64,000 nt of DNA, from the NCBI RefSeq assembly GCF_032401055.1, contig NZ_CP135529.1:2542001-2606000 (forward strand), read 5' to 3'. A program made the translations under genes and the position numbers. This document shows, one piece after another, positions 44,034 through 58,314 of the stretch. Position 1 is the first letter of the stretch. Every line of letters starts with the position of its first letter. This DNA comes from Tardiphaga sp. 709 (lineage in GTDB: Bacteria > Pseudomonadota > Alphaproteobacteria > Rhizobiales > Xanthobacteraceae). The notes below the pieces were generated by a model. It saw only the letters and a program-made list of their open reading frames with translations, was not told where the DNA came from and did no database searches.

Positions 44034-45017
44034 TCAGGCCGGCACTGCCGCTGCCGCCTGCTCCGCCAGAATACACCGCACCACACGATTATCGGCGAGT
44101 TCGACATTCGGCGGCGGCGCCTCGACGCAACGCGGCTGGGCGAATTTGCAGCGCGGCGCGAAGGAGCAATTCACCGGCGGCTTGTCGAGCGACGGCGGCG
44201 TACCGGGAATGGTCTCAAGCCGTGCCCCGCGCTTGGCGCCGTGCACGGTCGAGGCCAGCAGCCCCTGCGGATAGGGATGCACGGCCGAGCGCACGATCTG
44301 GCTCAGCGTGCCCTGTTCAACGATCTGACCTGCATACATCACCGCGACGCGGTCGCAGATCTCGATGGCCACGCCGATATCGTGCGTGACGAAGATGATC
44401 GACATGCCGAACTCGCGCTGCAGCTCGCGCAGCAAGAGCAGGATCTGGATCTGCACGGTGGCATCGAGTGCCGTGGTCGGCTCGTCGGCGAGCAGAATCT
44501 TCGGCTTGCAGGCGAGCGCCAGCGCAATCATCGCGCGTTGCCGCATGCCGCCGGACATCTCGTGCGGATAGGCATCGAGACGACGCTTGGCGGAGGGAAT
44601 GCGCACGACCTCGAGCATTTCGAGCGCGCGCTTCACGCCCTCAGCCTGGCTCTTGCCCTCGTGGCGCATCACGCTTTCGGCGATCTGCTGGCCGATCGTA
44701 TAAACGGGGTCCAGCGCCAGCGCAGGCTCCTGGAAAATCATCGACACCGTCTGGCCGCGAAATGCCGAGAGCTCGTCATCGTCGAGTGCCAGCACGTCCT
44801 TGCCGAGCACGTTGACCGTGCCGGTGATCTGAGTACGCTTTTTGGGTAGCAGTCGCATCAGCGCGCGCAAAGTGACGCTCTTGCCTGACCCGGACTCGCC
44901 GAGCAGGCCAAGCACCTCGCCTTCGCCGAGCGTGAGATTGAGATCGTTTACCGCATAGACGGTGCGTTCGCCGCCGAACCGGACGTTGAGATTGCGAACC
45001 TCGACAAGATTGCTCAT
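44034..45017 (-). CDS. Oligopeptide/dipeptide-type ABC transporter ATP-binding protein (DppD-like)
   Basis: A 327-residue ATPase. Walker A is Gly-Glu-Ser-Gly-Ser-Gly-Lys-Ser near residue 38, the signature Met-Ser-Gly-Gly-Met-Arg-Gln-Arg near 155, and Walker B Leu-Ala-Asp-Glu-Pro-Thr-Thr-Ala near 175. The C-terminal Opp/Dpp cysteine region includes Pro-Val-Asn-Cys-Ser-Phe-Ala-Pro-Arg-Cys and two further cysteines, often an iron-sulfur site. The ATG at 45017 overlaps the amidase stop by four bases. It is the last gene of the operon that starts at the binding protein (51392), separated from its ATPase partner by the amidase and a small gene. Confidence 0.92.
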   Translation of the reverse strand: MSNLVEVRNLNVRFGGERTVYAVNDLNLTLGEGEVLGLLGESGSGKSVTLRALMRLLPKKRTQITGTVNVLGKDVLALDDDELSAFRGQTVSMIFQEPALALDPVYTIGQQIAESVMRHEGKSQAEGVKRALEMLEVVRIPSAKRRLDAYPHEMSGGMRQRAMIALALACKPKILLADEPTTALDATVQIQILLLLRELQREFGMSIIFVTHDIGVAIEICDRVAVMYAGQIVEQGTLSQIVRSAVHPYPQGLLASTVHGAKRGARLETIPGTPPSLDKPPVNCSFAPRCKFAQPRCVEAPPPNVELADNRVVRCILAEQAAAAVPA

Positions 45018-46429
45018 GCCAACTCCGGGCACTGTTTGTGGAAATCCGTGGCGCGCTGGAAGGCAGCACCGATGGTCACCAGCGTCGCTTCATCGAACGG
45101 CCGACCAATCAGCTGCATGCCGACCGGAAGTTTCGACTTGGTGAAACCCGCGGGGATCGAGAGACCGGGCAGACCGAGATAGTTGATCGGGCGCGTGAAG
45201 CGCGTCAGGCGCTGGATCATCGCTTCAGCACCCGAGCTGTTGCCGACATCGGTCTCGGCAATGGTCGGAGCCGCGCCGGGCGAGACCGGAGCGAGCACCG
45301 CGTCAGTTCCGGTCACCGCAGCGAGATAGGCCGCAAGCGCAGGACCGCGCCAGCGCAGCGCCTCGATATAGGAGACGCCGGTGATCGCGAGACCGTTCTG
45401 CAACCGCATCAGCACCTGCGCGCCGTAGTCCTGCGGACGCTCGATCATCCAGCGCTTGTGCATTGCCGCGGCTTCCGTCGCAAGCACGAATTGGCAGGCT
45501 GCCGTGAGCTGGCCCTGATTGGGCAGATCGACTTCGACGATCTTGATGCCTTCATCCTTTAGCGTCGCAATGGTGTTCTGCAGAATGGCCGCGGTATCGG
45601 CATCGAGATCGTCGACATAGAACGCCTTGGGGATACCGACCGTCATGCCTTTGGCGGACACGCGCGTCGCCGCCATGTAGTCCGGCACAGGGCGCGTGCT
45701 GGTGGTCGGATCGAGCGGATCCGCACCGGCCATCAGACCGGTCAGCAGCGCGCAATCCTCGACGGTGCGCGCCAGCGGACCGACCGTATCGAGCGATTGC
45801 GACAGCGGCATCGCACCGGCGCGGCTGACCAGACCGACGGTCGTTTTCAAACCGGAGACGCCGCAGAAATGCGCCGGCAGCCGGATCGAGCCGCCGGTGT
45901 CGGAGCCGAGCGCCGCAAAAGTGAGACGCGCCGCAACGGCCGAGCCCGAGCCGGACGATGAACCGCCGGTGACGTGATCGACATGCCAGGGGTTATGCAC
46001 GGCGCCGTAATGCACGTTGTGACCGAGCGGGCCATAGGCGAATTCGACCATCTGCAACGAACCGAGCCGCACCGTGCCGGCATCCTTCAGGCGCTGCAGC
46101 GATGTCGCCGTCGTGGTCGCCACCCAGTCGCGGCGAATATGCGAGCCGCAGGTCACGACATGTCCCTCGTCGTAATACATGTCCTTGTGCGCCAGCGGCA
46201 CGCCGTGCAGCACGCCGCGGCTTTCCCCCTTGGCGAGCTCGGCATCGGCTGCGTCGGCCGCTGTCAGCGCCGTATCCGCCTCGATCGACATATAGGCGTT
46301 GAGGCTCGGCTGCGACTTCACGGCGCGATCGAGGCACGACTGCGTGGCTTCGCGCGACGAAATCTTCTTTGTGGCGATAGCGTCGGCGACTTCCGTCAGC
46401 GACAGCAATGCGGGTTCGGTCGCGCTCAT
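45014..46429 (-). CDS. Amidase signature enzyme inside an ABC importer operon
   Basis: A 471-residue amidase-signature hydrolase. The Ser-cisSer-Lys triad is complete: Lys82 in Leu-Ala-His-Lys-Asp, cis-Ser in Gly-Gly-Ser-Ser-Ser-Gly-Ser-Gly (155-162), and nucleophile Ser181 in Gly-Ser-Asp-Thr-Gly-Gly-Ser-Ile-Arg-Leu. It hydrolyses an amide to acid and ammonia in the cytoplasm. It resembles GatA/AtzE-type enzymes but has no GatB. Its ATG overlaps the stop of a 65-residue protein, and its stop overlaps the DppD-like start. The operon logic is import of an amide followed by hydrolysis. The substrate is unknown. Confidence 0.93.
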   Translation of the reverse strand: MSATEPALLSLTEVADAIATKKISSREATQSCLDRAVKSQPSLNAYMSIEADTALTAADAADAELAKGESRGVLHGVPLAHKDMYYDEGHVVTCGSHIRRDWVATTTATSLQRLKDAGTVRLGSLQMVEFAYGPLGHNVHYGAVHNPWHVDHVTGGSSSGSGSAVAARLTFAALGSDTGGSIRLPAHFCGVSGLKTTVGLVSRAGAMPLSQSLDTVGPLARTVEDCALLTGLMAGADPLDPTTSTRPVPDYMAATRVSAKGMTVGIPKAFYVDDLDADTAAILQNTIATLKDEGIKIVEVDLPNQGQLTAACQFVLATEAAAMHKRWMIERPQDYGAQVLMRLQNGLAITGVSYIEALRWRGPALAAYLAAVTGTDAVLAPVSPGAAPTIAETDVGNSSGAEAMIQRLTRFTRPINYLGLPGLSIPAGFTKSKLPVGMQLIGRPFDEATLVTIGAAFQRATDFHKQCPELA

Positions 46430-46624: not shown

Positions 46625-47686
46625 TCACTGCACTCCTGCGGCAGGTGCTTTGCTGTGTCCCGAGCCCGGAATCGCCATGTAACAGGCAGCCTGATGGCCG
46701 GTTACCGTGATTTCAGTCAGCTTCGGCGTCGCCTCACCGCACATCGCTTCGGCAAAGGGGCAGCGTGTGTGGAAACGACAACCGGACGGTGGATCAATCG
46801 GGTTCGGCGGATCGCCTGTGATCGGCGGCGTCTCGGTACGGTTGTCGGGATCGGATGACGGCATCGCGGCGAGCAGCGCCCGCGTATAGGGATGCGCCGG
46901 CCCGTCCCAGACCTCGTCCACCGGACCGAGTTCAACCACTTCGCCAAGATACATCACCAGCACGCGGTCGGAGATATAGCGCACCACGTTGAGATCGTGG
47001 CTGATGAACAGATAGGTCAGGCCGAATTCGCGTTTGAGATCGACCAGCAGATTGAGCACCTGCGCCTCGACCGACTTGTCGAGTGCCGAGACGGCCTCAT
47101 CGAGAATGACAAGACGCGGCGACAGCGCGAGCGCACGTGCGATGTTGACGCGCTGACGCTGGCCACCGGAGACTTCATGCGGATAGCGGTTGGCGAAGGT
47201 CTCGGGCCGCAGGCCGACCTTGCCGAGCAGCTCACGCGCCAGCAGCCGCGCGGCCTTGTCGGCCATGCCGTGCACCTTCGGCCCGAAGGCGATCGATTCC
47301 TCGATGGTCAGGCGCGGATTAAGCGACGCATAGCTATCCTGGAACACCATCTGCATGCCGCGGCGTAGCTCGCGCAGCGAAAGTTCGCGCCCGACGGTGC
47401 GGCCGTCATAGATGATATCGCCGGAATTGCGCGGCATCAGATGCATCAGCAGCCGCGCTGTCGTCGACTTGCCGCAGCCGGATTCGCCGACGATACCGAC
47501 GGTCTCGCCCTTGGAAATGGCGAAGGACACATCGTCCACCGCCCGCACGGTCTTGCTCGGCGCAAACAAGCCGCCGCGCACGGGGAAGTGCTTGGTCAGG
47601 CTGACCACCTGCAACAGCGGCTGTGCAACACCGCCAATGTCTTCCAGCGGCTCCAGCTTGTCGATTTCTTCTACAATATCACTCAT
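46625..47686 (-). CDS. Oligopeptide/dipeptide-type ABC transporter ATP-binding protein (DppF-like)
   Basis: A 353-residue ATPase; the ATG at 47686 avoids a ten-residue extension overlapping the permease gene. Walker A Gly-Glu-Ser-Gly-Cys-Gly-Lys-Ser lies near residue 62, the signature Val-Ser-Gly-Gly-Gln-Arg-Gln-Arg near 168, and Walker B Ile-Leu-Asp-Glu-Ala-Val-Ser-Ala near 188. The C-terminus has Gly-Cys-Arg-Phe-His-Thr-Arg-Cys-Pro-Phe and further cysteines, as usual in Opp/Dpp ATPases. It pairs with the DppD-like ATPase encoded downstream of the amidase. Confidence 0.92.
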   Translation of the reverse strand: MSDIVEEIDKLEPLEDIGGVAQPLLQVVSLTKHFPVRGGLFAPSKTVRAVDDVSFAISKGETVGIVGESGCGKSTTARLLMHLMPRNSGDIIYDGRTVGRELSLRELRRGMQMVFQDSYASLNPRLTIEESIAFGPKVHGMADKAARLLARELLGKVGLRPETFANRYPHEVSGGQRQRVNIARALALSPRLVILDEAVSALDKSVEAQVLNLLVDLKREFGLTYLFISHDLNVVRYISDRVLVMYLGEVVELGPVDEVWDGPAHPYTRALLAAMPSSDPDNRTETPPITGDPPNPIDPPSGCRFHTRCPFAEAMCGEATPKLTEITVTGHQAACYMAIPGSGHSKAPAAGVQ

Positions 47687-47690
47687 GCCA

Positions 47691-48578
47691 TCAGTTCCGG
47701 ATATCCATGGCACTGCGCATGCCGTCGCTCAGCAGATTGAAACAGATCGACACCGCGAAGATCATCGCGCCTGGGAGTGCTGCCACCCACGGATTGACAT
47801 AGATCGCGGTGCGCAGCGTGTTCAGCATCAGACCCCATTCCGGCTCCGGCGGCTTGGTACCGAGGCCGAGGAACGACAGGCCGGCAGCGAGGATCATCGA
47901 CACCGAGATCAGGCCAGTCGCGTAGACGAAGATCGAACCCAGCACGTTGCCCAGCATGTGCACGCGCATGATGGTGAAAGCGTTCGCGCCGGAGGCACGC
48001 GCGGCTTCCACATAGTCCATGTTACGCACGCCCGTGGTAACGCTCTCGGCGACACGCGTGATCTGCGGCACGAAGACGATGGTCAGCGACACGATCGAAT
48101 TGACGATGCCGGCGCCGAGCGCGCCGGAGATCGCGATGGCCAGCAGCACCGACGGGAACGCGTAGAACACGTCGACGGTGCGCATGATCGCGGTATTGAG
48201 CTTGCCGCCGACATAGCCGGCCACAACGCCAAGACCCGTCCCGATGATGAAGGCCAGGATCACCGGCAGGATGCCGATCAACAGCGACAGACGGCCGCCA
48301 TAGATCAGGCGCGCCAGCATGTCGCGGCCGAGTTCGTCGGTGCCGAGCGGATAATTGGGCGTACCGATCGCGCGCAGGCGACGGATCATCGAGCCCTGAT
48401 AGGGGTCTGCGAGATGCAGATAGGGCGCAAAGATCGCCGCCAGGAAGATCAGCAGCAGAATGAACGCGCAGGCCATGCTGACTTTGTCGCGCACGATGCG
48501 GCGGCCGACCGTGGCCCAATAGCCGCGGGCCTTGGTGGCAGGCGCCGCCTGCAATGCGGTGTCTGTCATTACAGTCAT
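47691..48578 (-). CDS. ABC importer permease (DppC-like)
   Basis: A 295-residue inner-membrane permease with about six helices and the binding-protein-dependent transport motif Glu-Ala-Ala-Arg-Ala-Ser-Gly-Ala near residue 190. The N-terminal helix and the periplasmic loop Thr-Asp-Glu-Leu-Gly-Arg-Asp near residue 77 are classic DppC features. It sits between the DppB-like permease and the DppF-like ATPase with small gaps, and forms the translocation pore with DppB. An alternative ATG at 48569 is nine bases inside. Confidence 0.92.
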   Translation of the reverse strand: MTVMTDTALQAAPATKARGYWATVGRRIVRDKVSMACAFILLLIFLAAIFAPYLHLADPYQGSMIRRLRAIGTPNYPLGTDELGRDMLARLIYGGRLSLLIGILPVILAFIIGTGLGVVAGYVGGKLNTAIMRTVDVFYAFPSVLLAIAISGALGAGIVNSIVSLTIVFVPQITRVAESVTTGVRNMDYVEAARASGANAFTIMRVHMLGNVLGSIFVYATGLISVSMILAAGLSFLGLGTKPPEPEWGLMLNTLRTAIYVNPWVAALPGAMIFAVSICFNLLSDGMRSAMDIRN

Positions 48579-48597: not shown

Positions 48598-49551
48598 TCA
48601 GCTCCGCTTGATGCGCGGATCGATCGATGCCTGCGCGATATCGACCAGAAGATTGAGGAACACGAAGAACAGCGCCAGCACCAGGATCGTGCCCTGCAGC
48701 AGCGGCAGGTCTCGCTGGAAGATTGCGGAGTTCAGAAGAAGCCCCGAACCGGGCCACGAGAACACGGTTTCGATCAGGATCGAACCGCCGAGCATGTAGC
48801 CGAGCTGCAGGCCCATCACAGCCAGCGCCGTGGGCGCCGCATTCTTGATGACGTGGCGAAACACCTTGGTTTCCTGCAGGCCTTTGGCGCGCAGCGCTTC
48901 GACGAAATCCTGCGACAGGATATCGCCTGTGAGCGCACGCACCGTGCGGGTCACGATGCCCATCGGAATGACCGATGTCGTGATCGCCGGCAGCACAAGA
49001 TATTTGATGTGCTCCCAGTCCCAAGCCCATGAGCCGGAGCCGCCCGGCCCTGCGCCAACCGCAGGCAGCCAGTTGAGCTGCACCGAGAAGATGATGACCA
49101 GCACCATGCCAAGCCAGTAATGCGGCACGGAGACGCCAGCGATGGCGATCGAGGTCGCCACCTTGTCGACCCAGGTGTCGCGGAAATAGCCGGCGATCAG
49201 GCCGAAGAACAGACCGAGCGTGAAGCCGATGGCCGCCGCGGCGATGGCCAGCGTCACGGTGTTTCCGACGGCCTTCAGCACTTCCGCCAGCACGGGGCGT
49301 CCGGTGGCGATGGAGCTGCCGAGATCGCCATGCAGCGCACGCCATAGCCACAGACCGAACTGGACCGGCAGCGGGCGATCGAAGCCGTAAGCGACGCGCA
49401 GTTGCTGCGCCAGTTCCTGCGATGCGTCAGCGGGGAGAATGGCCACGAGAGGATCGCCGGGCGTGATGTGCACCAGCAGGAAACACACCAGCGCCACGCT
49501 GAGGACGATAGGAATCACATAGACGACGCGTCGCGCGATGTAGACGAACAC
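48598..49551 (-). CDS. ABC importer permease (DppB-like)
   Basis: A 317-residue inner-membrane permease with six helices. Its N-terminal helix is typical (Met-Phe-Val-Tyr-Ile-Ala-Arg-Arg), and the segment Thr-Pro-Gly-Asp-Pro lies near residue 31. The coupling motif Glu-Ala-Leu-Arg-Ala-Lys-Gly is near residue 219. It forms the channel with the DppC-like subunit. It follows the binding-protein gene after 173 bases that contain a palindromic repeat, so the operon may show a transcript step-down there. Confidence 0.92.
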   Translation of the reverse strand: MFVYIARRVVYVIPIVLSVALVCFLLVHITPGDPLVAILPADASQELAQQLRVAYGFDRPLPVQFGLWLWRALHGDLGSSIATGRPVLAEVLKAVGNTVTLAIAAAAIGFTLGLFFGLIAGYFRDTWVDKVATSIAIAGVSVPHYWLGMVLVIIFSVQLNWLPAVGAGPGGSGSWAWDWEHIKYLVLPAITTSVIPMGIVTRTVRALTGDILSQDFVEALRAKGLQETKVFRHVIKNAAPTALAVMGLQLGYMLGGSILIETVFSWPGSGLLLNSAIFQRDLPLLQGTILVLALFFVFLNLLVDIAQASIDPRIKRS

Positions 49552-49724: not shown

Positions 49725-51392
49725 TTACGGCGTGATCGACACCGGCGAGAAGTCGACGAACCAGCTCTTCGGCTGCACAAAGCCCTTGATCTTCGGGCTC
49801 AGCGCACGCGGACCGACGTCATGGGCCACGTAGAGGAAGGCTGCGTCATCGACCGAAGCGGCGTGCAGCTCGGCCAGCGCCGCGTCACGTGCCGTCGCAT
49901 CGAAGGTGGTGCGTGCCTTGGTCACGAGTTCATCGAACTTCGGATTGTTGATGAAGCCCCAATTGTTCGAGACCGGCGGCGCCATCGACGACTGCAGGAA
50001 GCGAACCAGTGCGAAGAACGGATCCATCGCCGCATAGGTGACGTTGGTGGCGTTGGAGCCGTTCGCCGAGGGATCCTTGACGCCGCGGCGCCAGTTGGTG
50101 AACAGCGTATTCCACTCAATGACGTCGAGCTTGACGTCGAAGTAGCACTCCGCCAGCGCCTGCTGCAGATATTCGTTCATCGGCAGCGGCAGCATCTGGC
50201 CGGAGCCGGACGCCGAGGTCTGCGTCTTCACTTCGAGCTTCTTGGTGGGGCCGTAACCGGCTTCCTTCATCAGCGCTTGCGCTGCCTTCAGGTCATACTT
50301 GATCTCGAAGGTCGGCTTGCCGCGCCAGGGGTGGCCCGGCTCGAAAGTGCCGCTTGCCGGCACCATCAGGCCGGCGAGCAGACCATCCTTCAGGCCTTCA
50401 CGATCGATGCAGAGATTGGCGGCCTTGCGGACGCGGATGTCGTTCCACGGCGAGCCTTCGGCACGGGAGAACTGCCACGGCCAGACATGCGGCTGCTCGT
50501 TCTTCTCGATCTTGAAGCCACGCGCGGTGATTTCCTTGACCGCGTCGGGCGCCGGCGCTTCGACCCAATCCACCTGACCGGACAGCAACGCAGCGGTGCG
50601 TGCGTTGGCTTCCGGCATCGGCAGCAACACCATCTTGTCGGTCTTCGGAACACGGTCCTTGTTCCAGTAGGCGTCGTTCTTCACCAGTTCGAGACGCTCG
50701 CGCGGCGTGAACTTCGACATCTTCCACGGGCCGGTGCCAGAAGCTTCGCGCGCGAAGGCCGCCCATGCGGCCTGCGACTTGGCCTTGGCATCGGCGCCTT
50801 CAGCCTTGTCGAACAGCGCCTGCCACTTGGTGGGGCTCGCCATAAAGAGGTTGGTGAGATTGATCGGCAGGAAGGAGTCCGGCTCCTTGGTGGTCAGCTC
50901 GACGGTCATGTCGTCGATCTTCTTCGCCGACACCAAAGTCGGCATGCGCGAGGCGGTTACACCGACCTGGCTGGCATCGAACTGGACTGCATCTTGTTTG
51001 AGCACCTTGTCCACATTCCAGACCACGGCGTCCGCATTGAAGGCCGAACCGTCGTGAAAAGTGACGCCGGGACGCAGTTTGAAGGTCCACTTCTTCTTGT
51101 CGGCGTCGTCGACTGCCCACTCGGTGGCGAGCGCCGGGATAACGACACTCGCTTTGGTCGCGGACGACAGATCCCAGCCGGTCAGGCCGTCATACATCGT
51201 ATTGCCGGTGAAACGATTGCCTTCGAAGCCCTGATCGGGCTGGCCAAGCGTGCGCGGAATGTCGGCAGCGGTCATGCCGATGCGCAGCACCGTTTCGGCG
51301 CGCGCCACCTGTGGCAAGGTCAGGGCCGTGGCGAGCGTCAGCATCGTGACTGCTGCCGCGAGACGGCTCTTTGTCGGCTTTTCGATACGCAT
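49725..51392 (-). CDS. ABC importer substrate-binding protein (Dpp/Opp type)
   Basis: A 555-residue extracellular solute-binding protein family 5 member. A Sec signal peptide ends Val-Ala-Arg-Ala (about residue 32). The mature part has the family pattern Thr-Met-Tyr-Asp-Gly-Leu near residue 68 and Trp-Thr-Phe-Lys-Leu-Arg-Pro-Gly-Val-Thr-Phe-His-Asp-Gly near 100. It delivers the ligand to the downstream permeases. It is first in the operon and is preceded by a near-consensus sigma-54 promoter (51471-51486). A divergent gene encodes a clear paralogue, so the system may have two ligand ranges. Confidence 0.93.
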   Translation of the reverse strand: MRIEKPTKSRLAAAVTMLTLATALTLPQVARAETVLRIGMTAADIPRTLGQPDQGFEGNRFTGNTMYDGLTGWDLSSATKASVVIPALATEWAVDDADKKKWTFKLRPGVTFHDGSAFNADAVVWNVDKVLKQDAVQFDASQVGVTASRMPTLVSAKKIDDMTVELTTKEPDSFLPINLTNLFMASPTKWQALFDKAEGADAKAKSQAAWAAFAREASGTGPWKMSKFTPRERLELVKNDAYWNKDRVPKTDKMVLLPMPEANARTAALLSGQVDWVEAPAPDAVKEITARGFKIEKNEQPHVWPWQFSRAEGSPWNDIRVRKAANLCIDREGLKDGLLAGLMVPASGTFEPGHPWRGKPTFEIKYDLKAAQALMKEAGYGPTKKLEVKTQTSASGSGQMLPLPMNEYLQQALAECYFDVKLDVIEWNTLFTNWRRGVKDPSANGSNATNVTYAAMDPFFALVRFLQSSMAPPVSNNWGFINNPKFDELVTKARTTFDATARDAALAELHAASVDDAAFLYVAHDVGPRALSPKIKGFVQPKSWFVDFSPVSITP

Positions 51393-51470: not shown

Positions 51471-51486
51471 TGCAACGCTTGTGCCA
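51471..51486 (-). promoter_or_regulatory. Sigma-54 promoter for the ABC importer / amidase operon
   Basis: On the minus strand the site reads TGGCACAAGCGTTGCA. It has the -24 GG and -12 GC elements with exactly ten bases between and matches the consensus TGGCAC-N5-TTGCA. Transcription would start about 12 bases further, giving a leader of roughly 65 bases before the start at 51392. Confidence 0.75.
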
Positions 51487-51569
51487 AGGCCTGCAACCTT
51501 GCACCGCAATGACTCAAACTGCGGCACTGCAGCACACCAGCACACACCAACCGTTCGAAATGCCCAATC

Positions 51570-51585
51570 TGGCATCAGGATTGCA
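51570..51585 (+). promoter_or_regulatory. Sigma-54 promoter for the divergent binding protein
   Basis: The site reads TGGCATCAGGATTGCA: -24 GG at 51571-51572, -12 GC at 51583-51584, ten bases between. It is one base from the best consensus. The expected transcript start near 51596 leaves a 30-base leader with GGAG nine bases before the ATG. Confidence 0.7.
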
Positions 51586-51626: not shown

Positions 51627-53225
51627 ATGCGCGTTCGAAGCTCGTTGTTTGTTGCGGCCATCGCCGCCGCCATAGGTGCAGCCGCGCCGGCGCAAGCCGA
51701 AACGGTGGTGCGCTATGGCATCTCGATGGCGGACGTGCCGCTGACCACGGGTCAGCCCGATCGCGGCGCCGGCGGCTACCAGTTCACCGGTTACACAATC
51801 TACGATCCGCTCGTCGCCTGGGAAATGGATGTCGCCGATCGTCCGGGTAAACTCATTCCCGGCCTCGCCACCGAATGGAAGGTCGACGACACCGACAAGA
51901 CCAAGTGGCGTTTCACCTTGCGCAAGGGCGTCAAGTTTCACGATGGCAGCGACTTCAACGCCGATGCGGTGATCTGGAATCTCGACAAGGTGCTGAACGA
52001 GAAGGCGCCGCAATTCGACAAGCGCCAGAGCGCGCAGGTGAAGACCCGCCTGCCCTCGGTCGCAAGCTACGCGAAGATCGACGACGGCACCGTGGAGATC
52101 ACGACCAAGACCGTCGACTCCTTCTTCCCGTATCAGATGCTCTGGTTCCTGGTCTCCAGCCCGGCGCAGTATGAGAAGGTCGGCAAGGACTGGGACAAGT
52201 TCGCATCGCAGCCGTCGGGCACCGGCCCGTTCAAGCTGACCAAGCTCGTTCCGCGCGAGCTCGCCGAGCTCAGCAAGAATCCGGATTACTGGGACAAGAA
52301 GCGCATTCCGAAAGCCGACAAGCTCGTGCTCGTGCCCATGCCGGAAGCCCTCACCCGCACCAACGCGCTGCTCGCCGGTCAGGTCGACCTGATCGAGACC
52401 CCTGCTCCCGACGCTGTGCCGCAGCTCAAGGGCGCCGGCATGAAGATCGTCGACAACGTCACGCCGCATGTCTGGAATTATCACCTCAGCGTGCTGCCGG
52501 GTTCACCCTGGACCGACGTCCGCTTGCGCAAGGCGCTCAACCTCGCCATCGATCGCGATGCCGTCGTCGCGCTGATGAACGGACTCGCCAAGCCCGCCAT
52601 CGGCCAGGTCGATCCGTCGAGCCCGTGGTTCGGCAAGCCGACATTCAAGATCAAGTATGATCTTGCCGAAGCCAAGAAGCTGGTGAAGGAAGCCGGCTAC
52701 GGCCCGGAGAAGCCGCTGAAGGCGACGTTCATCATCGCCAATGGCGGCACCGGCCAGATGCTGTCGCTGCCGATCAACGAATTCCTGCAGCAGAGCTTCA
52801 AGGAAATCGGCGTCGAGGTGGAATTCAAGGTCGTCGAACTCGAAGTTCTCTACACCGCATGGCGCAAGGGTGCGGCCGACGACAGCATGAAGGGCATCAC
52901 GTCCAACAACATCGCTTACGTCACCTCGGATCCGCTCTACGCCATCGTGCGCTTCTTCCACTCCGGCCAGATCGCACCGGTCGGCGTGAACTGGGGCGGC
53001 TACAAGAACCCGAAGGTCGATGCGCTGATCGACGAAGCCAAGAACACGTTCGATCCGAAGAAGCAGGACGAGTTGCTCGCCGAAGCCCACGCGCAGATCG
53101 TCGACGATGCCGTGCTGGTCTGGGTAGTTCACGACACCAACCCGCATGCGCTGTCGCCTAAGGTGAAGAAGTTCGTGCAGGCCCAGCACTGGTTCCAGGA
53201 CCTGACCACAATCGGTCTCGACTGA
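51627..53225 (+). CDS. Second ABC importer substrate-binding protein, paralogue of the 49725 gene
   Basis: A 532-residue family 5 solute-binding protein with a signal peptide ending Pro-Ala-Gln-Ala-Glu. It aligns by eye with the divergent binding protein along most of its length. Shared segments are Gly-Gln-Pro-Asp-Arg/Gln-Gly, Leu-Ala-Thr-Glu-Trp, Val-Asp-Asp, Phe-His-Asp-Gly-Ser and Phe-Asn-Ala-Asp-Ala-Val. The two differ mainly in the ligand-facing central region. It has no own permeases and presumably uses those of the divergent operon. It has its own sigma-54 promoter and a strong terminator at 53258. Confidence 0.92.
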   Translation: MRVRSSLFVAAIAAAIGAAAPAQAETVVRYGISMADVPLTTGQPDRGAGGYQFTGYTIYDPLVAWEMDVADRPGKLIPGLATEWKVDDTDKTKWRFTLRKGVKFHDGSDFNADAVIWNLDKVLNEKAPQFDKRQSAQVKTRLPSVASYAKIDDGTVEITTKTVDSFFPYQMLWFLVSSPAQYEKVGKDWDKFASQPSGTGPFKLTKLVPRELAELSKNPDYWDKKRIPKADKLVLVPMPEALTRTNALLAGQVDLIETPAPDAVPQLKGAGMKIVDNVTPHVWNYHLSVLPGSPWTDVRLRKALNLAIDRDAVVALMNGLAKPAIGQVDPSSPWFGKPTFKIKYDLAEAKKLVKEAGYGPEKPLKATFIIANGGTGQMLSLPINEFLQQSFKEIGVEVEFKVVELEVLYTAWRKGAADDSMKGITSNNIAYVTSDPLYAIVRFFHSGQIAPVGVNWGGYKNPKVDALIDEAKNTFDPKKQDELLAEAHAQIVDDAVLVWVVHDTNPHALSPKVKKFVQAQHWFQDLTTIGLD

Positions 53226-53257: not shown

Positions 53258-53289
53258 ACGCCGTCGGGCAACCGGCGGCGTTTTTGTTT
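53258..53289 (+). terminator. Rho-independent terminator after the second binding-protein gene
   Basis: A ten-base stem ACGCCGTCGG / CCGGCGGCGT with a GCAA tetraloop and one G-T wobble, followed directly by a T-run (TTTTTGTTT). A strong intrinsic terminator by all visible criteria. Confidence 0.9.
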
Positions 53290-53378
53290 GCAATGAGAAC
53301 GATGGATACCGCCGGCGAAAACGGAACCCTCGCTTGCGCCACGACTTGAACCGCACCGTCCTGCATACCGGTGCCATC

Positions 53379-55070
53379 ATGATCGACGACCTCTGGTACA
53401 AAAACGCCGTTTTCTACTGCCTGTCCGTCGGCAGTTTCATGGATGCCGACGGTGACGGTTGCGGCGATTTCAAGGGCCTCACGCGGCGGCTTGACTACAT
53501 TCATGGCCTCGGCATTACCGCGATCTGGCTAATGCCGTTCCAGCCGTCGCCCGGCAAGGACGACGGCTACGACATCTCAGACTATTACGGCGTCGATCCG
53601 CGCTACGGCACGCTCGGCGACTTTGTCGAATTCACCCATGGCTGCCACCAGCGCGGCATCCGCGTCATCATCGATCTCGTGGTCAACCACACCTCGGACC
53701 AGCATGCCTGGTTCAAGGACGCGCGCAGCGCCAGGGATTCGAAGTATCGCGACTGGTATGTCTGGTCGGACAAGAAGCCAGCCAATGCCAACAAGGGCAT
53801 GGTGTTTCCCGGCGTGCAGAAATCGACCTGGACCCACGACACCACGTCGAAGTCCTGGTTCTTCCATCGCTTCTACGATTTTCAGCCCGACCTCAACACA
53901 TCAAATCCCTATGTACAGGCCGAGATCCTGAAGATTATGGGCTTCTGGCTGCAGCTCGGCGTCTCCGGCTTCCGCATGGACGCCGTGCCCTTCGTGATCG
54001 CCACCAAGGGACCGAAGGTCAATAAGCCGACCGAACAATACGACATGCTGCGCGCCTTCCGCGAATTCCTGCAATGGCGCAAGGGCGATGCAATCATTCT
54101 CGCCGAAGCCAATGTGCTGCCGGAAACCGACATGGAATATTTCGGAGACGATGGCGACCGCATGCAGATGATGTTCAACTTCCACGTCAACCAGAACCTT
54201 TTCTATGCGCTGGCCTCCGGCGATGTACGTCCACTGGCGGCGGCCATGAAGGTGACCAAGCCGCGCCCGGCGACGGCGCAATGGGGCTTGTTTCTGCGCA
54301 ATCATGACGAGCTCGATCTTGGACGGCTGACTGAAGAGCAACGCCAGACGGTGTTTGCCAAATTCGGCCCGGACAAGGACATGCAGCTCTACGACCGCGG
54401 CATCCGCCGTCGGCTGGCGCCTATGTTGGGCGGCGACCGGCGCCGGCTCGAACTCGCTTATAGCCTGATGTACACGCTGCCCGGCACACCGGTGCTGCGC
54501 TATGGCGACGAAATCGCCATGGGCGACGATCTATCCCTACCGGAGCGCAATTGCGCGCGAACGCCGATGCAATGGTCGACCGAGCCGCATGCCGGCTTCA
54601 CCAAGAGCGACAGGTCGAAAAACCCGGTGATCAACAAAGGCCCCTATGGCTACGACCACGTGAATGTCGCCAAACAACGCCGCGATCCCAATTCGATGCT
54701 GAACTGGACCGAGCGCATGATCCGCATGCGCAAGGAAGTGCCGGAGATCGGTTGGGGCGACTTTGCCATCATCGCCACGCGCAATCCGGCCGTGCTCGCG
54801 ATCCGCTATGACTGGCGCAACAACTCGGTCTTGTTCGTGCATAATCTCGACGAGAAACCCTGCGAAGTTACCTTTGCTGTCGGGATAGACGGCCAGCAGG
54901 GCGAACACCTGATCAACCTTCTGGCTGAAGACCACAGCCGCGCCGACGCCAAAGGCAAGCATCATCTGATGCTGGAGGCCTATGCCTATCGCTGGTATCG
55001 TGTCGGCGGTCTGGATTATCTGCTGCGCAGAAGCGACATCGATGGCGAGACGGATGCGCATCCGGGATAA
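53379..55070 (+). CDS. GH13 enzyme, trehalose synthase-like (maltose alpha-glucosyltransferase-like)
   Basis: A 563-residue GH13 protein; the ATG at 53379 gives the family start (Asp-Asp-Leu-Trp-Tyr-Lys-Asn-Ala-Val-Phe-Tyr). The nucleophile Asp is in Gly-Phe-Arg-Met-Asp-Ala, the acid Glu in Ile-Leu-Ala-Glu-Ala-Asn, and the third Asp in Arg-Asn-His-Asp-Glu-Leu. Val-Asn-His-Thr-Ser-Asp is the conserved region I. The sequence style (Lys-Asp-Asp-Gly-Tyr-Asp-Ile, Thr-Pro-Met-Gln-Trp-Ser) is closest to trehalose synthase, which interconverts maltose and trehalose. It lacks a maltokinase fusion. Trehalose or glycogen metabolism is likely with glgX nearby. Confidence 0.85.
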   Translation: MIDDLWYKNAVFYCLSVGSFMDADGDGCGDFKGLTRRLDYIHGLGITAIWLMPFQPSPGKDDGYDISDYYGVDPRYGTLGDFVEFTHGCHQRGIRVIIDLVVNHTSDQHAWFKDARSARDSKYRDWYVWSDKKPANANKGMVFPGVQKSTWTHDTTSKSWFFHRFYDFQPDLNTSNPYVQAEILKIMGFWLQLGVSGFRMDAVPFVIATKGPKVNKPTEQYDMLRAFREFLQWRKGDAIILAEANVLPETDMEYFGDDGDRMQMMFNFHVNQNLFYALASGDVRPLAAAMKVTKPRPATAQWGLFLRNHDELDLGRLTEEQRQTVFAKFGPDKDMQLYDRGIRRRLAPMLGGDRRRLELAYSLMYTLPGTPVLRYGDEIAMGDDLSLPERNCARTPMQWSTEPHAGFTKSDRSKNPVINKGPYGYDHVNVAKQRRDPNSMLNWTERMIRMRKEVPEIGWGDFAIIATRNPAVLAIRYDWRNNSVLFVHNLDEKPCEVTFAVGIDGQQGEHLINLLAEDHSRADAKGKHHLMLEAYAYRWYRVGGLDYLLRRSDIDGETDAHPG

Positions 55071-55140
55071 TCGCACCAGCCCCTCCGCGTCATTGCGAGC
55101 GCAAGCCAGGCAGTCCAGGAAGATGGCTGATGGACCTGAG

Positions 55141-56727
55141 CTATCGTAACCTTACAATAGCGCCCTCATTGCCGCGCAACTCCAATTGGCCCGACACGTT
55201 CTCGCCCTTACGATCCAGCGCCGTCGCCAGCAAAATCTCGCCGCCCTCCACATGCAATACGACAGGCTCACCGCTCAAATTGAGGGCAATCAGGAGCGCC
55301 TGCCCGTCATAGACGCGCCGATAGGCCAGCACATCGCCCGCAGCGTCCACAGGCTCATAGCCGCCGAACACAAGCTCAGGCATGTGCTTGCGCAAATCGA
55401 TCAGCTTCACATAGAGGCTAAGAATCGAATGGGGATCGGCCGCAAGCGCCGCCGCATTCTGATGCGGATAGTCCGCATCCAGCGGCAGCCAGGGCTGGCC
55501 GGTCGTGAAACCCGCATGCTCGGTGGCACCCCATTGCATCGGCGTGCGGCATCCGTCGCGGCCGAGACCAATCCCAGGCACATTCTTTTCGAACGGATCC
55601 TGAACCTGATCCGGTGCAATAGGCACCTGCTTCATGCCGATCTCGTCGCCATAGTATAGCGTCGGCGTCCCGCGTAGCGTCAGCAGCAACATCGCAGCGA
55701 CGCGCGCCTGGGCCATGCCAACCCGGCTAGCGACGCGCGGCCGGTCGTGATTGCCGAGCACCCAGTTCGGCCAGGCGCCGAGCGGCAGTGCGGCTTCGTA
55801 GCGCGCGATCAATTCGCCGATGGCAAAAGCATTCCACGGCGCGGAGAGCAGCGCAAAATTGAACGGCAGATGCGCGCCCGACAGGTCACTTCCGTAGTAG
55901 GCGACCAGCCGATCGAACGGGAGATAGATCTCGCCGATCAGCACGCGATCGTCGAATTCATCGACCACGCGGCGCATTTCGGCGACCACATCCAGCGTCT
56001 CCGGCCGATCGGTCGAGTAGAGCGGCAGGAAAGCCTCGTGTGGCGGGCGCCCGGCCGTGAAATTCGGATTTGCAGGGTTATCGCGAAATTCAGAATCCTT
56101 GATCAGATGCCAGATCACATCGACGCGAAAGCCATCTACGCCGCGGCGCATCCAGAACCGCATCACCTCATAGATGGCGTCACGAACGGCAGGATTGCGC
56201 CAGTTCAGGTCGGGCTGTTTGTCGAGAAAGGCATGATAGTAATATTGCTGGGTGGCCTCGTCATATTGCCAGGAGCTGCCGCCAAACTCCGACATCCAGT
56301 TGGTCGGCGCGCTGCCGTCCGGCTTCGGATCGTGCCAGATATACCAATCGCGTTTGGGATTATCTGATGATGACCGGCTTTCGACAAACCACGGATGCTG
56401 ATCCGAGGTGTGGTTCGGCACCAGATCGAGAATGATCTTCAGACCATGACCGTGAGCCGCAGCCACCAGCGCATCGAAATCGGCCGACGTACCGAAAATC
56501 GGATCGACGCCGATATAGTCTGATATGTCATAGCCGAAGTCTGCCATCGGAGACGGGAAGATCGGCGACAGCCAGATCGCGTCGATGCCGAGCCGCCGCA
56601 GATAAGGCAGCCGGCCAACGATGCCCGCGAGATCGCCGATGCCGTCTCCGTTCGAGTCCTGAAACGACCGCGGATAGATCTGATAGATGGTACCGGCCTG
56701 CCACCAGACTGTCGCTGCAGTTGCCAT
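55141..56727 (-). CDS. GH13 alpha-glucosidase / oligo-1,6-glucosidase-like
   Basis: A 528-residue GH13 enzyme. The ATG at 56727 starts the usual N-terminus (Val-Trp-Trp-Gln-Ala-Gly-Thr-Ile-Tyr-Gln-Ile-Tyr-Pro-Arg-Ser-Phe). The open frame upstream to 56766 just reaches the terminator of the neighbouring gene. Catalytic residues are Asp in Gly-Phe-Arg-Val-Asp-Val, Glu in Leu-Ile-Gly-Glu-Ile-Tyr and Asp in Gly-Asn-His-Asp-Arg-Pro. It hydrolyses terminal alpha-glucosidic bonds, probably in the cytoplasm because no signal peptide is seen. It converges on the trehalose-synthase-like gene. Confidence 0.88.
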   Translation of the reverse strand: MATAATVWWQAGTIYQIYPRSFQDSNGDGIGDLAGIVGRLPYLRRLGIDAIWLSPIFPSPMADFGYDISDYIGVDPIFGTSADFDALVAAAHGHGLKIILDLVPNHTSDQHPWFVESRSSSDNPKRDWYIWHDPKPDGSAPTNWMSEFGGSSWQYDEATQQYYYHAFLDKQPDLNWRNPAVRDAIYEVMRFWMRRGVDGFRVDVIWHLIKDSEFRDNPANPNFTAGRPPHEAFLPLYSTDRPETLDVVAEMRRVVDEFDDRVLIGEIYLPFDRLVAYYGSDLSGAHLPFNFALLSAPWNAFAIGELIARYEAALPLGAWPNWVLGNHDRPRVASRVGMAQARVAAMLLLTLRGTPTLYYGDEIGMKQVPIAPDQVQDPFEKNVPGIGLGRDGCRTPMQWGATEHAGFTTGQPWLPLDADYPHQNAAALAADPHSILSLYVKLIDLRKHMPELVFGGYEPVDAAGDVLAYRRVYDGQALLIALNLSGEPVVLHVEGGEILLATALDRKGENVSGQLELRGNEGAIVRLR

Positions 56728-56767
56728 GGTCCTGTCACTCAATGTTCTGAGGCTTCCATCACGCACG

Positions 56768-56795
56768 AAAAAACGGCCCTTCCGAGGAAGGGCCG
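56768..56795 (-). terminator. Rho-independent terminator for the small secreted protein gene
   Basis: On the minus strand the stem CGGCCCTTCC / GGAAGGGCCG with a short central loop is followed by TTTTTT. It lies 20 bases beyond the stop at 56815 and before the alpha-glucosidase start. Confidence 0.9.
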
Positions 56796-56814
56796 CCTCT
56801 CGTTCGGCGTAATA

Positions 56815-57087
56815 TTAGTAGCGTTCGATGACAGTACGACGTTCGACGCCGCCATCGTAATAGCCACGATCGCGGTCGCGGCTGCGCTTGATGATCACGG
56901 TCTCGTTGCGGTCACGACGATCGCGGTAGTACCCGCGATCATAGTCGTCGCGATAGCGGTCGCGGCCGACGGCGCCAACCGTAACGCCTCCCGGACCGAC
57001 GCCAACGCCGAACTCCTGGGCCTTGGCTGGAATTGCGCTGCTGATGCCCGCCGCAGCAACGGCGATGATGGCAAGATGCTTAATCAT
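56815..57087 (-). CDS. Small secreted Arg/Asp/Tyr-rich protein
   Basis: A 90-residue protein starting at the ATG at 57087 (GAGGAGCAC upstream on the minus strand), with a signal peptide ending Ala-Lys-Ala-Gln. The mature part has a Gly-Val repeat (Gly-Val-Gly-Val-Gly-Pro-Gly-Gly-Val) followed by a low-complexity stretch of Arg, Asp and Tyr. It ends Thr-Val-Ile-Glu-Arg-Tyr. The longer frame to 57366 reads through non-signal sequence and is rejected. Similar short Tyr/Arg/Asp proteins are common in Bradyrhizobium-type genomes, with no known function. A strong terminator follows, so it is transcribed alone. Confidence 0.8.
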   Translation of the reverse strand: MIKHLAIIAVAAAGISSAIPAKAQEFGVGVGPGGVTVGAVGRDRYRDDYDRGYYRDRRDRNETVIIKRSRDRDRGYYDGGVERRTVIERY

Positions 57088-57218
57088 GACGTGCTCCTCG
57101 TGTGTGAACCATGAGGTAGCAATCCCGCACTGCAGGGTTAGTTCCGAGAGCATGACAAAACGATCACGCGTAACGCGCACGAAAGCCCGGAACCAATCGA
57201 GGTTTTGCCGAACGTGAA

Positions 57219-58187
57219 CTAGCCGGGCGGTATAATTGCGTTGCTCGGTGTCGGCCGATCGGTGATCTGCTGCCCGAACAGGCTGCCGACCAGCTCGACC
57301 ATCACCCGTGCGGTACGCCCGCGCTCGTCCAGAAACGGGTTGAGCTCGACGACATCCAGCGAACACATCAGGCCGGAATCGTGCAGCAGCTCCATGATCA
57401 GATGCGCCTCACGATAGGTCGCGCCGCCGGGCACCATGGTGCCAACGCCGGGCGCTGTTGCAGGATCGAGGAAATCCACATCGAAGGACACATGCAACAC
57501 GCCGTTGCGCGCCTTGACCCGCTCGATGACACGGCGGATCAGAACTCCGACACCGAACTCGTCGATCTGCCGCATATCTGCAATGGCCACCTTGCGTGCG
57601 TGCACCAGCTCTTTCTCGAGCTTGTCGATGGAGCGAATCCCGAACAGATCGAGATTGTCAGGCTTGATCGATGCGCGCGGATCAACGCCGAGCAAGCCAT
57701 CCAGACCGGGCTCGCCGCACAGAAAGGCCGCGGACATGCCGTGCATGTTGCCGGTGATGGTCGTGTGCGGCGTATTGTAATCGGCATGCGCGTCGAGCCA
57801 CAGCACGAACAGTTCGCGCCCCTGCTCGTGCCAGTGTCGCGCCACGCCATTGACCGATCCCATGGACAGGCTGTGATCACCCCCCACGAAGATCGGCAGC
57901 GCGCCCGATTTGGCAAGCGTGTAGGCTCGCGCACTCAACGCCTGGATCCAGCTCTGGATCACACGGTAATGCTTGGCATTCTCCGGCGGCGTATCTGTCG
58001 ACAGAGGCACAGACGGTGGCATGAGGTCACCATGATCCTCCACCTCGAAGCCAAGCTCCTCCAGCAGCGGCCCCAAGCCTGCCGTCCGCATGGCCGCCGG
58101 CCCCATCAAAGTCCCGCGCTGCGAGGCCCCGACTTCAACTGGCGCGCCCAGCAATGCGATGCGTTTGTGACGGGAGACGTCGGTCAT
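57219..58187 (-). CDS. rocF: Arginase
   Basis: A 322-residue ureohydrolase that converts arginine to ornithine and urea with a binuclear manganese site. Ligand motifs are Gly-Gly-Asp-His-Ser near residue 101, Asp-Ala-His-Ala-Asp near 127 and Ser-Phe-Asp-Val-Asp-Phe-Leu-Asp-Pro near 235. The C-terminal Ser-Leu-Asp-Val-Val-Glu-Leu-Asn-Pro stretch is normal. The ATG at 58187 has CGGAG upstream; a TTG at 58193 is the alternative. It diverges from glgX. The enzyme would release urea nitrogen, and no urease genes are in the window. Confidence 0.95.
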   Translation of the reverse strand: MTDVSRHKRIALLGAPVEVGASQRGTLMGPAAMRTAGLGPLLEELGFEVEDHGDLMPPSVPLSTDTPPENAKHYRVIQSWIQALSARAYTLAKSGALPIFVGGDHSLSMGSVNGVARHWHEQGRELFVLWLDAHADYNTPHTTITGNMHGMSAAFLCGEPGLDGLLGVDPRASIKPDNLDLFGIRSIDKLEKELVHARKVAIADMRQIDEFGVGVLIRRVIERVKARNGVLHVSFDVDFLDPATAPGVGTMVPGGATYREAHLIMELLHDSGLMCSLDVVELNPFLDERGRTARVMVELVGSLFGQQITDRPTPSNAIIPPG

Positions 58188-58314
58188 AAGCAAAACTCCG
58201 GGCTAGCGACCCTCGCAGGCCAAGATATATTCCGAAACAACCTGATTGCATTGCAACGGAAATGCGGCGGCGCAGTTATCCCGCGCATTTTCATCACCAG
58301 ACAGTGGGGCAATC

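Follow-up and report, generated by a model that had tools for sequence, protein, structure and literature searches.

Gene layout

The window, that is, the whole stretch of DNA analysed here, comprises 64,000 nucleotides of Tardiphaga sp. 709 (NZ_CP135529.1, positions 2,542,001-2,606,000 of the forward strand; genome size 6.36 Mb). It harbors two genes coding for solute-binding proteins of the SBP_bac_5 family (family 5), SBP1 on the minus and SBP2 on the plus strand, which diverge from a 234-bp gap bounded by the ATG codons of SBP1 (ending at 51392) and SBP2 (at 51627). The two proteins share ~50% sequence identity, and the nearest solved sequences are those of family 5 binding proteins. The closest named relatives at the locus, in which SBP2 is 99-100% identical, are Tardiphaga strains and one Bradyrhizobium sp. 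NFR13. The features of the locus are as follows.

44034-45032, minus strand: DppD-type ATPase, encoded at the far end of the inferred operon (from its open frame, its position and a reading of the sequence)
45014-46429, minus strand: amidase (Pfam PF01425; nearest NCBIfam models are those of the AtzE family, with scores below the cut-offs)
46625-47713, minus strand: DppF-type ATPase (Pfam ABC_tran and oligo_HPY)
47691-48578, minus strand: DppC-type permease (Pfam PF00528/PF12911)
48598-49551, minus strand: DppB-type permease (Pfam PF00528/PF19300)
49725-51392, minus strand: SBP1, SBP_bac_5 solute-binding protein, 555 aa (Pfam PF00496, 243.7 bits)
51471-51486, minus strand: predicted sigma-54 -24/-12 promoter of the SBP1-dppB-dppC-dppF-amidase-dppD operon, TGGCACAAGCGTTGCA (11/11 specified bases)
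51487-51569, no strand: 83-bp spacer between the two sites, putative enhancer region (conserved spacer length; midpoint dyad in many Bradyrhizobium loci)
51500-51524, no strand: imperfect dyad of the first-pass annotation (CCGCA-N11-TGCGG core at 51504-51524; unconserved)
51570-51585, plus strand: predicted sigma-54 -24/-12 promoter of SBP2, TGGCATCAGGATTGCA (11/11 specified bases)
51627-53225, plus strand: SBP2, SBP_bac_5 solute-binding protein, 532 aa (Pfam PF00496, 265.5 bits)
53258-53281, plus strand: terminator-like stem-loop 3' of SBP2 (10 pairs, 8 of them G-C, with a T-rich tail; pattern scan, 1 found versus 0.3 expected)

We infer that the minus-strand genes form an operon, SBP1-dppB-dppC-dppF-amidase-dppD, which is headed by SBP1 and extends to 44034. 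SBP2 is probably transcribed alone, because the terminator-like stem at 53258-53281 follows it. In the rows shown for the six proteins tested, none reached a curated NCBIfam cut-off. Across 80 loci, the operon content is largely retained, with dppB present in 77, dppC in 75, dppF in 74 and the amidase gene in 73; six loci hold fewer than three of these four genes, and in five of them (the exception being L023) a contig ends on the operon side. Past SBP2 and the stem, two glycosidase-like genes of the GH13 type and an arginase-like gene can be read from the open frames at 53334-58193.

The two sigma-54 sites

Both sites exhibit GG-N10-GC within TGGCAYN5TTGCW, face outward toward the binding-protein genes and are separated by 83 bp; the first-pass annotation, which had reported two divergent near-consensus sigma-54 promoters here, turned out to be exact with respect to both sequence and coordinates. 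When placed by the usual convention, about 12 bases past the GC, transcription would start at ~51460 on the minus and ~51596 on the plus strand. The predicted leaders are then ~68 bases long on the SBP1 side and ~31 bases long for SBP2, and reading of the sequence identifies GAGGGA and GGAG, respectively, as ribosome-binding sites.

Exact matches to TGGCAYN5TTGCW occur in the whole window at these two sites only, and matches with one mismatch are fewer than expected (3 versus 4.63). Genome-wide, the bare motif yielded 26 matches versus 18 for the reversed control, a weak enrichment, so that a single site taken alone constitutes weak evidence. When the 234-bp gap was shuffled 40,000 times with preservation of dinucleotides, the plus site arose in 98 and the minus site in 76 of the shuffles, and both sites together in none; the outward site pair is not due to chance. 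A search of the gap for a sigma-70-like promoter found none, and the genome contains a single rpoN gene.

Elsewhere in the genome of Tardiphaga sp. 709, TGGCAYN5TTGCW is matched exactly by another two outward-facing sites with 138 bp between them (C1:4449052-4449067 on the minus and 4449206-4449221 on the plus strand), and directly after the minus site starts an open frame that spans 155 codons or more.

Conservation of the sites and of their spacing

A match with at least 75% identity to either binding protein was found at 93 loci, 91 of which hold the divergent pair; the other two (L007 and L125) were excluded from the site count, the fetched DNA containing one gene of the pair only. A B. 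diazoefficiens strain (L035) is among the carriers of the pair. The window's own locus is counted three times among the 91 (L092, L093 and L117) and some strains probably twice, and the 91 loci collapse to 83 distinct sequences. At all 91 loci the minus site agrees at 11/11 bases; the plus site does so at 89, the remaining two (L017 and L021, both from Rhodopseudomonas) agreeing at 10/11 bases. Across the 83 distinct sequences, the core of the minus site is invariant except for C/T at position 6, and in that of the plus site A5 is present in 81 (G in the other 2) while position 16 is A or T. Variation is seen at the linker positions, slight at some (82/83 have C at position 10 of the minus site). 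The two sites are separated by a spacer of 83 or 84 bp in 64 sequences of the 83.

When 149 genomes of the family were scanned, the two-site divergent pattern was detected in 17, at one place each, and the reversed control in none. The pattern adjoins a relative of SBP2 in 16 of these 17 genomes. In the exception, G045, it lies at C3:338976-339096 between two other matches to family 5 binding proteins, ~4.1 and 2.7 kb away, and may represent a second, independent divergent RpoN pair.

An SBP2-type match at E 1e-150 or better is present in 59 of the 149 genomes; the loci of 30 were fetched and read, those of 29 were not fetched. SBP1 lies divergently next to SBP2 in 22 of the 30, with the plus site at 11/11 bases in 19 and at 10/11 in 3, and the minus site at 11/11 in all 22 (in G025 it sits outside the 450 bp scanned and was read separately). 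The first-pass annotation had named conservation in orthologous gaps as a check, and the sites are indeed kept wherever the divergent pair is found, that is, in 91/91 loci and 22/22 genomes.

The remaining 8 of the 30 genomes exhibit no SBP1 (>60% identity) inside the ~1.5 kb fetched. In each of these eight loci a sigma-54-like site is nevertheless located 20-54 bp upstream of SBP2, at 11/11 bases in two and at 9/11 in six, in which C precedes the GG. Because SBP2 has such a site even where no SBP1 was seen nearby, its control by RpoN may have preceded the divergent arrangement of the two genes. Palindromes of the TTGTATACAA or CATTGCATACAATG type, which operators of the GntR family often resemble, are found upstream of SBP2 in five genomes (L183, L197, L199, L200 and L203), hinting at a second regulator.

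Dyads between the sites

An enhancer serving both promoters would be expected in the spacer at 51487-51569. The first-pass annotation had proposed as enhancer the imperfect dyad at 51500-51524, the arms of which (CCGCA at 51504-51508 and TGCGG at 51520-51524) are separated by 11 bases. The dyad is present in the window as described; it is confined to the strain group of the window, and the proposed role is not supported, the left arm being missing from the sister species.

A different dyad, ACAA-N4-YTGT, occurs in 43 of the 83 distinct spacers, many of them from Bradyrhizobium, and in 42 of the 43 it is centered no more than 1.5 bp from the midpoint of the site pair; the 43 spacers are related and do not represent 43 independent events. 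The Tardiphaga spacers lack this dyad; there GCACA, the left half of the Bradyrhizobium dyad, can be aligned with GGCAC by eye only. It is likewise missing in three genomes whose spacers measure 284, 333 and 398 bp. A search of six Bradyrhizobium genomes for ACAA-N4-YTGT located 20-50 bp upstream of an RpoN-type site returned this locus only, in four of the six, and the reversed control one match, in G122. The dyad was rejected as a regulon-wide motif, because it was found at this locus only and the reversed control likewise gave a match. ACAA-N4-YTGT is likely an activator site in those Bradyrhizobium, and possibly a repressor site instead.

Candidate activators

Five proteins encoded in the genome of Tardiphaga sp. 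709 carry the GAFTGA motif: NtrC (exceeding the TIGR01818 cut-off), FlbD (exceeding the NF050807 cut-off), an FhlA-like protein with PAS domains, a PAS-type activator and an orphan response regulator, L111, which consists of a receiver domain, an AAA+ domain with GAFTGA and a Fis-type HTH; NtrX is devoid of GAFTGA. NifA was eliminated as the activator, none of the five reaching the NifA cut-off. Other genomes were surveyed with matches to NtrC at E 1e-60 or better. In all 22 pair-bearing genomes we found NtrC (93-100% identical; GAFTGA was seen in the copy of the window's genome), the L111-type regulator (74-100% identical) and FlbD-type matches (judged on identity and range, the FlbD model having been run on the copy of the window's genome only). 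The PAS-type activator is present in 2 of the 22. G124 yielded four activator matches, none of them FhlA-like, at a threshold that a weaker match could escape. Hence NtrC, FlbD and the L111-type orphan response regulator remain as candidates, since each is present in 22 of the 22 genomes.

The rhizobial NtrC box has the form TGC-N11-GCA (available text of PMC10746234). An exact match is found in 6 of the 83 spacers, a number within the range of 1 to 11 obtained for other spacings; with one mismatch allowed, 65 of the 83 spacers match, placing N11 second among 17 spacings (67 for N4, 62 for N10), a result compatible with the presence as well as the absence of an NtrC box. The window's species exhibits an exact TGC-N11-GCA at 51492-51508, which is lost in the sister species.

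Motifs could not be transferred from known nitrogen promoters: 11 glnB leaders contain conserved blocks with no clean dyad to carry over, and glnK leaders align poorly. Searching 17 genomes with a form of the glnII site of Bradyrhizobium sp. DOA9 yielded one match, at what reads as an amino-acid binding-protein gene, and neither a TGC-GCA nor a CAC-GTG dyad is present in the 260 bp upstream of that match. In the glnK leader of the window's genome (comparison of L148 and L151), TGGCAT and GC are nine instead of ten bases apart, TGGCATAAAGTTGC; the glnK leader of G159, from the same genus, has the ten-base spacing, TGGCATAGAGGTAGCT, and members of the genus may not all share one spacing at this promoter.

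Of the three candidates, NtrC fits best the gene content, that is, a peptide/opine-type ABC transporter together with an amidase. We therefore lean, with slight preference, toward NtrC as the most likely activator, and hence toward induction at nitrogen shortage.

Relation to published systems

A paper of 2026 on Bradyrhizobium sp. DOA9, which has two RpoN proteins, predicts chromosomal RpoN targets in its Table 1 (available text of PMC13207237). The table gives TGGCATCAAGATTGC at -37 of BRADOA9_v1_30300 ('Heme-binding protein A') and TGGCATAGCCATTGC at -51 of BRADOA9_v1_30301 ('ABC transporter substrate-binding protein') (PMC13207237), and these are letter-identical to the plus and minus sites, respectively, of many Bradyrhizobium loci aligned here. 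Identical sites and consecutive numbering suggest that 30300 and 30301 are orthologues of the SBP1/SBP2 pair. The two genes appear there as separate rows, and within the main text they are named in that table only; the word 'divergent' is found nowhere in the main text, where layout, spacer, operon and enhancer are untreated (PMC13207237).

According to the paper, its predicted RpoN sites agree well with the genes that are altered in the rpoN mutant; a fold change for 30300 or 30301 was not found in the available text, and Table 1 includes many loose sites devoid of the GG-N10-GC core (PMC13207237). Cells were grown under microaerobic, nitrogen-fixing conditions, and dppB, dppD, dppF and atzE were lowered in the rpoN mutant; these need not belong to the operon described here, because dppF carries the distant tag 40033 in Table 1 (PMC13207237). 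A gel shift is likewise reported for a promoter called ABC-transporter, with no fuller name in that section (PMC13207237).

The -24/-12 element is common to this pair and to the RpoN promoters of rhizobial glnB, glnII and urt in the same organisms; a TGGCACGGACCCTGCT site is located upstream of glnB in an alignment of 11 leaders from the genus of the window. Dependence on NtrC is established for glnII of B. japonicum; at the present pair the exact NtrC box is unconserved. The genes glnB, glnII and urtA are listed in the DOA9 table as well (PMC13207237). Dipeptide- and opine-type ABC importers (DppA/OppA/HbpA, AccA) likewise combine SBP_bac_5 proteins with Dpp-type permeases and ATPases. What distinguishes the present locus from them is the presence of two divergent binding-protein genes per permease set and of an amidase gene inside the operon. 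The literature searched contained no description of this site pair as one divergent unit, and no account of induction by nitrogen limitation, or of loss in an ntrC mutant, for this promoter pair.

Discussion

Our findings suggest, with a high degree of confidence, that the gap between SBP1 and SBP2 holds a divergent RpoN promoter pair, which would be opened by one enhancer-binding protein and would switch on the operon and SBP2 together. RpoN control of both genes, as predicted from the sites, is well supported, because the sites are conserved along with the gene pair and because the same sites are found among the predicted RpoN targets of DOA9 (available text of PMC13207237); the first-pass annotation had postulated such control and is corroborated on this point. 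RNA polymerase containing RpoN would bind to each -24/-12 element and then wait until an ATP-hydrolysing enhancer-binding protein, located in or near the 83-bp spacer, opens both promoters, so that the SBP1-dppB-dppC-dppF-amidase-dppD operon and the single gene SBP2 would be induced together. The two binding proteins would then probably feed one common permease set, thereby widening the range of substrates. The proposal would entail RpoN dependence in Tardiphaga sp. 709 itself, co-activation from a shared enhancer, and sharing of the permease.

It is exceedingly improbable that the two sites match the motif by accident in non-coding DNA and that promoters of a different type drive these genes. 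The weak enrichment of the bare motif in the genome (26 versus 18) and the unenriched one-mismatch form in the window would be in line with it, but both sites together were obtained in 0 of 40,000 shuffles, every examined locus with the divergent pair conserves them, the RpoN table of DOA9 lists the same sites (available text of PMC13207237), and the gap yielded no sigma-70-like promoter on search. The site pair might also have had a different history, in which the plus site is the old RpoN promoter of SBP2 and the minus site arose upon arrival of the SBP1 operon, each being served by a separate enhancer. This is conceivable, if doubtful: all eight fetched loci devoid of a nearby SBP1 exhibit a sigma-54-like site upstream of SBP2 (six of them at 9/11 bases), and in three genomes the two sites stand 284-398 bp apart, a distance at which a single central enhancer appears less natural, but the minus site is the stricter of the two (11/11 in 91/91 loci), and 64 of the 83 spacers measure 83 or 84 bp.

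As for the activator, a tentative alternative, to which we assign the lesser weight, is that the RpoN promoters are fired not by NtrC but by the L111-type orphan response regulator or by FlbD, in response to a signal other than nitrogen. Both are as widespread as NtrC in the pair-bearing genomes (L111-type, 74-100% identical, and FlbD-type matches in 22/22 genomes), the midpoint dyad ACAA-N4-YTGT was found at this locus only in the six genomes searched, and the exact NtrC box is unconserved across the spacers. The operon, however, encodes nutrient uptake and an amidase, FlbD serves flagella, and the surroundings of the L111 gene, as far as reading of the open frames goes, give no pointer to peptide uptake. 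A special form of such control, which we consider quite improbable, would be a symmetric, locus-specific enhancer at which one oligomer of the L111-type regulator, and not NtrC, binds to the midpoint, ~66 bp away from either start, and activates the two promoters; L111-type orphan response regulators of this bacterial family have received little study. Control by NtrC and nitrogen starvation, which the first-pass annotation had deduced from the promoters, is plausible: gene content and the elimination of some activators speak for it; no exact NtrC box is conserved, and L111-type and FlbD-type proteins are distributed just as widely.

A divergent RpoN pair is a familiar kind of element, and orthologous sites are already in print. 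The region described here is well conserved, is predicted to place a peptide/opine-type uptake operon of the Bradyrhizobium group under two-way control by RpoN, and unites two published table rows from DOA9 into one regulatory unit. With its two strong sites and short spacer, it provides a compact natural system for studying whether a single activator is able to act on two outward RpoN promoters simultaneously.
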